DNA of 28,069 bases from a virus: IMG/VR virus record IMGVR_UViG_3300022931_000017, positions 1-28,069 of that record; one strand, written 5' to 3'. Of the stretch, positions 9,788 to 10,130 are shown in pieces. The notes below the pieces were generated by a model, which had not been told where the DNA came from, ran no database searches, and saw only the letters and a list, made by a program, of their open reading frames with translations. How positions within the stretch are numbered: position 1 is the stretch's first letter; every line of letters begins with the position of its first letter. Both the position numbers and the translations under genes were made by a program.

Positions 9788-9802
9788 ATGTAGTTGATGA
9801 TA

Positions 9803-9851
9803 CTGTAGAGTAGCATTTAAGACGGCGGTTCGACTCCGCCCACCTCCACCA
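9803..9851 (+). ncRNA. tmRNA acceptor piece (3' half of tRNA-like domain)
   Basis: Runs from the 3' strand of P2 (9803-9820) through the T-arm (stem 9824-9828/9836-9840, loop 9829-9835) to the acceptor strand CACCTCC (9841-9847), discriminator A and encoded CCA. On its own it looks like the 3' end of a tRNA, but no matching D-arm or anticodon arm lies upstream; the 5' acceptor strand is found about 110 bases downstream. The 5' end of the mature piece could extend into 9788-9802. Confidence 0.85.
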
Positions 9852-9953
9852 ATGAGCCATATGAATGATAATCCTACTTTGTTATTGTGGGTTTTTATAA
9901 TATCGATTATGATGGGATTATATTTTGTTCTAGACTGGACTTTGATGACTTAA
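9852..9953 (+). CDS. 33-codon hydrophobic frame inside the tmRNA spacer
   Basis: The spacer removed from a permuted pre-tmRNA is here almost exactly filled by one frame. It starts at ATG directly after the CCA and stops at TAA four bases before the coding piece. The encoded peptide begins MSHMNDNPTLLLWVF and is a single predicted membrane helix with an acidic end. There is no Shine-Dalgarno (the upstream bases are the acceptor strand), so translation is doubtful and the frame may be chance. It is noted because spacers would not be expected to stay open. Confidence 0.25.
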   Translation: MSHMNDNPTLLLWVFIISIMMGLYFVLDWTLMT

Positions 9954-9957
9954 TGTT

Positions 9958-10130
9958 GGGGGTGTTCGGGAATTCGATTGAATGTGATTATGCAGAGGAG
10001 ACCATCTTGACAGATGTAAAATGTCATTTAACTTAATCGCAAACAATGACGATTATTTTTCCGCACAGGTAGCATTGGCCGCTTAGTGTTGGAGTGGGCT
10101 TATGATTGTGCCTTGAAACAGAAACAATCA
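9958..10130 (+). ncRNA. tmRNA coding piece (mRNA-like domain)
   Basis: Begins with the 5' acceptor strand GGGGGTG (9958-9964), then a D-loop-like GGGAATTCGA (compare GGAUUCGA in E. coli tmRNA) and the P2 5' strand (9978-9995). PK1 is an H-type pseudoknot: CATCT 10003-10007 pairs with AGATG 10012-10016, and the loop TGAC 10008-10011 pairs with GTCA 10023-10026. The resume codon GCA (10039) lies 12 bases after PK1, behind TAATC. After the tag stop, GATTGT (10104-10109) pairs with ACAATC (10124-10129), a closing hairpin. The 3' end is approximate. Confidence 0.85.
10039..10086 (+). other. tmRNA proteolysis-tag reading frame
   Basis: From resume codon GCA the frame reads ANNDDYFSAQVALAA and stops at TAG (10084-10086). 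Starting with Ala and ending in ALAA matches known degradation tags recognised by ClpXP and related proteases. At 15 encoded residues it is longer than the 10-residue E. coli tag but in the range seen in alphaproteobacteria. Confidence 0.82.

Follow-up and report, generated by a model that had tools for sequence, protein, structure and literature searches.

A viral DNA record from IMG/VR (28,069 bases, G+C content 32.7%; this whole stretch is called the window here) encodes a permuted tmRNA, and the intervening segment (IVS) between the two halves of its gene holds a putative gene for a small membrane peptide. We consider it probable that the locus is a composite of a tmRNA gene and a peptide gene of a T4-like marine phage, with the IVS serving as a slot for swappable genes. 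Permuted tmRNAs of phages are already known, and the putative protein gene in the IVS appears to be the new part.

The window encodes a permuted tmRNA

The covariance search proposed as a check in a preliminary description of this locus was performed with Rfam. The permuted tmRNA model RF04321 matched positions 9790–10086 of the plus strand in full (model positions 1–213) with 88.7 bits and an E value of 4.8e-16, the gathering cut-off being 47 bits. Independently, ARAGORN called a permuted tmRNA at 9759–10177 with the tag ANNDDYFSAQVALAA followed by a stop. Among the matches of older Rfam models listed, after omission of two lower-scoring overlapping matches of the clan, beta_tmRNA stood alone with 46.9 bits, below its cut-off of 84, and the alpha model (RF01849) did not appear.

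The features of the gene are compiled in Table 1. As the preliminary description had stated, an encoded CCA lies upstream of its own 5′ acceptor strand, and the acceptor stem spans the IVS with seven of seven pairs, G3–U70 among them, next to an A discriminator. Its P2 helix was found as well; recounting from the letters gave 15 of 17 paired positions, close to the 16 of 18 reported before. The placement of PK1 12 nt before the resume codon (GCA at 10039), the tag frame ending in ALAA and the end of the feature at 10130, where the 3′-terminal hairpin ends, all agreed with the earlier reading. When 9788–10135 was folded without constraints, P2 and the T-stem formed, as did the acceptor stem that bridges the IVS; the energy z-score was only −1.65 and was equalled by 4 of 100 shuffles. 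On the RF04321 match, the ARAGORN call and the stems conserved in the family described below, a chance reading of the tmRNA is rejected. The earlier reading as a permuted tmRNA thus stands; what it overlooked is the ORF nested in the IVS (the term is defined in PMC11915505), a segment that the mature tmRNA is expected to lack.

Table 1. Features of the tmRNA locus and its downstream neighbours in the window.
Feature	Position	Strand	Basis or remark
Acceptor piece (P2 strand, T-arm, acceptor 3′ strand, A73, CCA)	9790–9851	+	RF04321, ARAGORN, letters
T-arm GGCGG-TTCGACT-CCGCC	9824–9840	+	letters
Acceptor 3′ strand CACCTCC	9841–9847	+	letters
Discriminator A (A73)	9848	+	letters
Encoded CCA	9849–9851	+	letters
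Intervening segment (IVS), 106 nt	9852–9957	+	between CCA and 5′ acceptor strand
Nested ORF, 30 aa, MNDNPTLLLWVFIISIMMGLYFVLDWTLMT, predicted single-pass membrane peptide	9861–9953	+	family, letters
Coding piece to tag stop	9958–10086	+	RF04321, fold, letters
5′ acceptor strand GGGGGTG	9958–9964	+	letters
D-arm	to 9977	+	part of coding piece
P2 strand of coding piece	about 9979–9995	+	fold, letters
PK1 pseudoknot, CATCT/AGATG and TGAC/GTCA	10003–10026	+	letters
Tag frame ANNDDYFSAQVALAA, stop TAG	10039–10086	+	ARAGORN, letters
3′-terminal hairpin TGATTGT/ACAATCA, loop GCCTTGAAACAGAA	10103–10130	+	loop motif CTTG..AACAGAA
IscA-like gene	10151–10516	+	downstream context
IscA-like gene, next in row	10473–10895	+	downstream context
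IscU/NifU_N gene	10897–11286	+	downstream context

Genomic setting

The tmRNA lies on a virus record amid phage genes, in line with the earlier claim that it is phage-encoded. The genes upstream of it encode a phage-type primase, ThyX, glutaredoxin, a RuvC-like resolvase and a ribonucleotide reductase, the last of B12 type according to a marginal Pfam match. The phage is called T4-like because of the primase matches among phage records: 2339 records matched, all with less than 60% identity, and the best-ranked match (47.6% identical) is found in a Synechococcus virus. At the DNA level, no relative of positions 9400–10500 was found among 50,697 phage records, nor did the tmRNA of one relative have a DNA match in this collection. 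Two sigma-70-like promoters, both on the minus strand, were detected in 9350–10250 compared with 5.1 expected. The same region contains a terminator-like stem at 10079–10097 (0.4 expected), which overlaps the end of the tag. A glutamine riboswitch, as in the methylophage Melnitz, was not listed in the window at E values up to 5.

Two IscA-like genes and an IscU gene follow directly 3′ of the tmRNA in one row (10151–11286). Solved chains matched by the window IscU carry the labels NifU-like, IscU and mitochondrial ISCU, and we take the first ones to be from E. coli and Haemophilus. Genes for Fe–S assembly are already known in marine T4-like phages, where six IscU genes fall in a gammaproteobacterial clade and one with SAR86 (PMC5332604). 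A gammaproteobacterial host, if this is what the phage infects, would probably find a two-piece tmRNA foreign.

Several further genes of the window were recorded. Six ORFs (starting at 16097, 20020, 20590, 20874, 22236 and 23630) have MKTF/MKTL-type N-termini, which we take to resemble the capsid-targeting sequence of T4 internal proteins; their products are possibly packaged and injected with the DNA. For the one at 20874–21485, there is also a weak Pfam match to HAD phosphatases that narrowly misses the cut-off. At 26966–27625, a PycTM match (Pycsar effector family, 80 bits, cut-off 27.2) indicates a membrane protein resembling an anti-phage effector in a phage. The stretch 18358–19532 holds a MotA/TolQ/ExbB-like gene and, after it, a gene whose product has one membrane stretch at the N-terminus, matches nothing in Pfam and may be a partner of the ExbD/TolR kind; such a pair is odd in a phage. 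In 25405–26966, a family 3 solute-binding protein (PF00497) is preceded by an ORF in which a haem-type CxxCH motif (CAECH) was noticed by eye.

A family of related phage tmRNAs

The beginning of the tag was written as a DNA pattern, TAATC followed by codons for Ala-Asn-Asn-x-Asp-Tyr, which was present in at least 119 stretches of viral contigs. The same pattern less its last base occurred in seven stretches among 84,980 prokaryote species. Four of these (L318, L319, L321 and L322, on contigs of three MAGs) encode ANNxDY tags, and the remaining three were rejected as chance matches with neither a tag nor an upstream CCACCA. Since the search pattern forces ANNxDY, the tag start is no evidence; the tag endings were unforced and read ALAA in 71, AIAA in seven, ALVA in two and MLAA in one of the 81 genes resolved, with synonymous variation in the Leu-Ala-Ala codons. 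Relatives were also obtained without the tag pattern. The IscA-like protein has eight matches among the 50,697 phage records, all below 60% identity, and at least 591 in viral contigs; among the best 80 of these at least 591 loci, ARAGORN called a permuted tmRNA in 12 (L002–L006, L012, L013, L022, L030 and L037–L039), and the tags of these 12 were of the ANNxDY type only.

ARAGORN detected a tmRNA in 65 of 125 loci scanned. The 60 loci without a call comprise 57 with a tag frame and three chance matches, and the tag was close to a cut end in only seven of the 57. Phage tmRNAs of this kind are therefore undercounted, ARAGORN being blind to 57 tag-bearing loci.

After merging of identical copies, 81 distinct family members were resolved, the window's included; 19 further copies, at contig ends or of odd form, failed the stem finder. 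All 81 members have seven of seven acceptor pairs and five of five T-stem pairs, totals that are partly given by construction because the stem finder sought the highest pairing and favoured strands with GG at their start. Features not selected by it are G3–U70 and A73, both present in all 81, and the compensatory pair types: acceptor pairs 4–7 each occur as two or three different Watson–Crick pairs. The loop motif of the 3′ hairpin is kept in 70 of the 81 members, with 33 distinct arm pairs, and AACAGAA 3′ of the tag is common to 23 of 37 other ARAGORN-permuted tmRNAs. Covariation in P2 was modest (in 65.8% of 3120 swaps, a strand paired better with its own partner than with a divergent one), as was the scoring of PK1, which reached at least 7 in 42 of 66 members compared with 20.8% of shuffles.

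The T- and D-loops covary across the 81 tmRNAs. Every member with an xGC-type T-loop (44 of 81) has AG in the D-loop, and every member with a T-loop of the TTC types (37 of 81) has GG, the form of the window. The xGC/AG combination is perhaps an alternative tRNA-like elbow that, by eye, may also be present in Melnitz and the pelagiphage HTVC008M. In L214 and L258, the T-loop seems by eye to have 6 nt, one short, in otherwise well-paired tmRNAs. One Flavobacteriales MAG (G021, with L318 and L321) had three permuted tmRNA matches above the cut-off on separate contigs, which are likely phage contigs binned with the MAG; one further weak tmRNA match may be the MAG's own one-piece tmRNA.

Comparison of the window with L005 showed identities of 91% in the upstream region, 75% in the T-arm and acceptor strand, 45% in the IVS, 75% in the 5′ acceptor strand and D-arm, 98% from the D-arm to the tag pattern, 83% in the tag and 61% in the tail. 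This distribution suggests that the tRNA-like block may have been exchanged together with its IVS, but tag and tail differ too.

A membrane-peptide gene nested in the intervening segment

The IVS is 96–111 nt long in 54 of the 81 members, 176–366 nt in 10 and 14–58 nt in 17. An ORF was scored as nested when its ATG lay at most 23 nt after the CCA and its stop 0–9 nt before G1. Such an ORF is present in 47 of 50 distinct 96–111-nt IVSs (1.02 in dinucleotide shuffles), a membrane-type hydrophobic stretch in 45 of the 50 (0.145 in shuffles) and a Shine–Dalgarno (SD)-like 4-mer in 37 of the 47 with an ORF (3.8 in shuffles), expectations that overstate the significance because the family members are not independent. 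In the three failing IVSs (L232, L248 and L297), the ORF begins alike but continues into the coding piece. Among other ARAGORN-permuted tmRNAs, a set in which 22 of 40 IVSs have at least 60 nt and some calls are possibly false, their tags being odd, only two of 40 distinct IVSs passed; their peptides of 17 and 9 residues are without a membrane stretch.

AT-rich DNA easily gives hydrophobic peptides. For the commonest form of the peptide, type MEKKLMWLAIIIILALGITYATLFIGYDFR, the pN/pS ratio was 0.43 (22 distinct 30-codon ORFs). The other frames gave 1.15 and 1.39, and none of 200 column shuffles reached so low a value. Judged by this substitution pattern, the commonest nested membrane ORF is under purifying selection. 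The codon pattern of its peptide start was also used in a search blind to the tag, which yielded 51 stretches. By stem pairing, 49 of them lie inside a permuted tmRNA, with the tag pattern downstream in 42; in the other two the contig ends within the ORF, and CCACCA is found just upstream.

The window peptide can be aligned without gaps to the nested peptides of L310, L294 and L202, and an in-frame ATG at 9852 would lengthen its ORF by three residues. Its pN/pS was 0.73 against these three nearest relatives and 0.61 for all four together (0.87 and 2.16 in the other frames). For a set of eight ORFs it was 0.66, and one other frame gave 0.71, so that no clear signal emerged. The Shine–Dalgarno sequence is weak in the window copy. 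Family, position and hydrophobicity are what argue for the window ORF, which taken alone is weakly supported.

No PHROGs family was assigned to any of six nested proteins at E ≤ 0.001 (best 0.037). A homing endonuclease was also considered; the nested products are a membrane-like peptide or a short basic protein instead.

A second protein family and exchange of the nested gene

The long IVSs encode a basic protein of 50–59 residues that ends in KDWDKDLWD or similar and is unrelated to the membrane peptide. Its stop is usually located 14–16 nt before G1, farther than in the membrane class, and one of the 10 long-IVS copies (L252) is frameshifted near its end. No protein match to this family was found among the 50,697 phage records. 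A family search yielded 38 loci, some on contigs also recovered by the searches above: 20 are nested by a strict structural test, one of them (L340) broken after seven codons; four (L335, L347, L351 and L368) have a tag nearby and are incomplete or fail the strict test; and 14, taken as stand-alone, have neither the nested structure nor an ANNxDY-type tag within about 420 nt. The pN/pS ratio, calculated without a frame control for 27 of the 38 loci (near-duplicates omitted, together with one truncated copy, one broken copy and one extended far upstream), was 0.53 for 18 nested and 0.54 for nine stand-alone copies. As nested and stand-alone copies have three N-terminal types in common, this gene may have moved several times. 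Exonuclease (phrog_298), DNA helicase loader (phrog_269), baseplate hub with tail lysozyme (phrog_430) and endonuclease (phrog_452) genes are found next to the basic-protein loci, and this variety of neighbours indicates that the tmRNA occupies several places in such phage genomes.

Closely related tmRNAs differ in what their IVS contains. L274 with a membrane gene, L301 with a 26-nt IVS and no gene, and L237 and L208 with the basic-protein gene have an acceptor piece that is 97–100% common to them and are 96–97% identical around PK1 and the tag. By sequence, then, small genes of different kinds have entered and left the IVS within the phage lineage, and the IVS probably acts as a gene slot, as the composite-gene reading has it. 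None of the 17 short IVSs (14–58 nt) holds a gene of either family, one containing a 15-codon ORF; the nested gene is therefore dispensable.

The helix closing the intervening segment

Pairing of the first 20 nt of the IVS with the last 34 nt was compared with that of sequences in which both ends were shuffled. Mean energies of this predicted closing helix were −10.8 versus −6.7 kcal/mol in the membrane class (49 distinct IVSs), −11.7 versus −5.7 kcal/mol in the long class (eight IVSs) and −14.7 versus −6.3 kcal/mol in short IVSs of at least 42 nt (eight). A value of −12.6 versus −6.4 kcal/mol for 28 other permuted tmRNAs shows that the helix is general to permuted tmRNAs and hence did not evolve for the nested gene. 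Specific to the lineage is that its 5′ strand is predicted to hold the SD sequence and AUG of the nested gene. In predicted folds of membrane-class precursors, the acceptor stem formed across the IVS in 54 of 54, and the stretch from SD to ATG was at least half paired in 47 of 51 with an ORF. The closing helix of the window has −6.7 kcal/mol, equal to the shuffled mean of its class.

Relation to known tmRNAs

The view that permuted phage tmRNAs are not widely described has to be revised: a two-piece tmRNA is described for the phage Melnitz in a paper in which 133 unique structures of phage tmRNA include, by ARAGORN, 53 two-piece forms, 50 of these from marine or aquatic phages (PMC9004378). 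We also found permuted tmRNAs in the records of Melnitz (MZ577097; RF04321, 113.4 bits) and HTVC008M (NC_020484; 90.6 bits). Melnitz shares with the window a long tag, ANDNYVPVDYALAA, whose start differs, AACAGAA in the 3′ end (by eye) and the IVS-closing helix, and its tmRNA is located near a helicase loader gene as in several relatives of the window locus. Unlike that of the window, the Melnitz IVS of 142 nt contains a candidate ORF of 54 codons, preceded by an SD-like site, whose last 42 nt lie in the coding piece, and no protein is annotated there in the record; in L121, too, a longer candidate ORF with an SD-like site overlaps the coding piece. HTVC008M has the closing helix in a 49-nt IVS and differs from the window by a short tag, ANFNEYALAA, and an IVS without a gene of either family.

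Bacterial permuted tmRNAs, of which the alpha, beta and cyano forms are merged in RF04321, have the same gene order, acceptor pairing, PK1 and tag, whereas the tag-start pattern of the present lineage was limited to the above seven stretches in 84,980 prokaryote species, the four real tags among them lying on MAG contigs. Genes in removed segments of tmRNAs are known from group I introns bearing homing endonuclease genes, and a tRNA-Ala in one permuted IVS is called a unique feature in the 2025 tmRNA database paper (both PMC11915505). As in these cases, the nested gene of the window lies in a part that the mature tmRNA should lack; unlike them, it belongs to small protein genes of two families that occupy the permuted IVS in many phages. 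In the open-licence literature searched, we saw no report of protein genes in the IVS of permuted tmRNAs.

Possible function of the composite locus

From the arrangement of the locus, we infer that one transcript would give rise to both a two-piece tmRNA and a small membrane peptide translated from the IVS. The resident gene would be harmless to the RNA, the IVS being missing from the mature form. Translation of the nested gene and folding or processing of the tmRNA are probably mutually exclusive, because the nested start site sits in the IVS-closing helix beside the acceptor stem. Most likely, the peptide would be made co-transcriptionally, before the 3′ strand of the closing helix exists; the precursor would subsequently fold and be cut after the CCA and before G1, presumably by tRNase Z and RNase P, the probable processing enzymes of permuted tmRNA (PMC3985003). 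The two pieces would remain paired and act with SmpB. No SmpB was found in 21 virus records, the window's included, many of which are fragments; that of the host would thus be needed. With host SmpB, the tmRNA would rescue stalled ribosomes and add the tag ANNDDYFSAQVALAA.

Ribosome rescue or an altered degradation tag, both put forward in the preliminary description, are plausible roles of the tmRNA. The simplest reason for a phage to carry it would be that ribosomes stall on host messages broken in the course of takeover and need to be rescued, and the authors of the Melnitz paper suggest upkeep of the hijacked machinery and tagging of host proteins (PMC9004378). A more far-reaching version of our proposal, which we regard as tentative, is that the locus acts as a switch between two products. 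A ribosome starting at the SD sequence by the CCA would melt the closing helix and block the acceptor stem, so that peptide translation and tmRNA maturation exclude each other; when initiation falls, the precursor would fold and yield rescue RNA. The IVS would then be a mobile cassette that travels between tmRNAs and stand-alone sites.

Alternatively, the ORF could be a regulatory leader on which initiating ribosomes hold the precursor open and tune its maturation to the ribosome supply, the peptide itself being inert. The SD sequence and AUG in the closing helix beside the acceptor stem, half or more paired in most predicted folds, would suit this idea. We consider it unlikely: the amino acids are conserved beyond start and stop, two unrelated protein families, one of which also lives elsewhere, fill the slot, and some near-identical tmRNAs are without any such ORF. 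Less likely still is an ordinary phage permuted tmRNA of the published kind (PMC9004378) in which the ORF of the IVS arose by chance or is decaying and has no role as protein. The short IVSs with neither gene family and the weak coding signal of the window agree with it, but the frequency of nested ORFs far above both the shuffles and other permuted tmRNAs, the pN/pS with its frame controls and a second, unrelated family with members outside tmRNAs do not. For the family a chance ORF is rejected, and a minor risk remains for the window copy.

Instead of rescuing ribosomes, the tmRNA itself might compete with host tmRNA or SmpB or act as their decoy. Phage DS6A has a tag-less tmRNA that inhibits host tmRNA (cited in PMC11915505), and the lack of SmpB in the virus records examined would mean that host SmpB is drawn on; since the tag frame is kept, with synonymous Leu-Ala-Ala variation and with 78 of 81 genes ending their tag in ALAA or AIAA, we hold this to be improbable. 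Fragments of host ssrA are known in prophages (PMC9004378), and a relic of this type, picked up at an attachment site, is very improbable here, as the gene is complete, its stems covary in 81 distinct members, the tag is kept and the genes occur in several T4-like genomic settings.

A composite of tmRNA and peptide gene would give the permuted gene order a use, since the segment between the halves, being missing from the mature RNA, leaves room for a protein gene. Provided that the nested genes are translated, a single short locus would supply a peptide of the phage as well as the rescue RNA and its degradation tag, with start sites placed so that maturation of the RNA competes with translation. 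Should the tentative switch be true, it would be self-adjusting, setting a phage membrane (or basic) protein against ribosome-rescue capacity. The composite locus makes testable why phages carry tmRNA at all.
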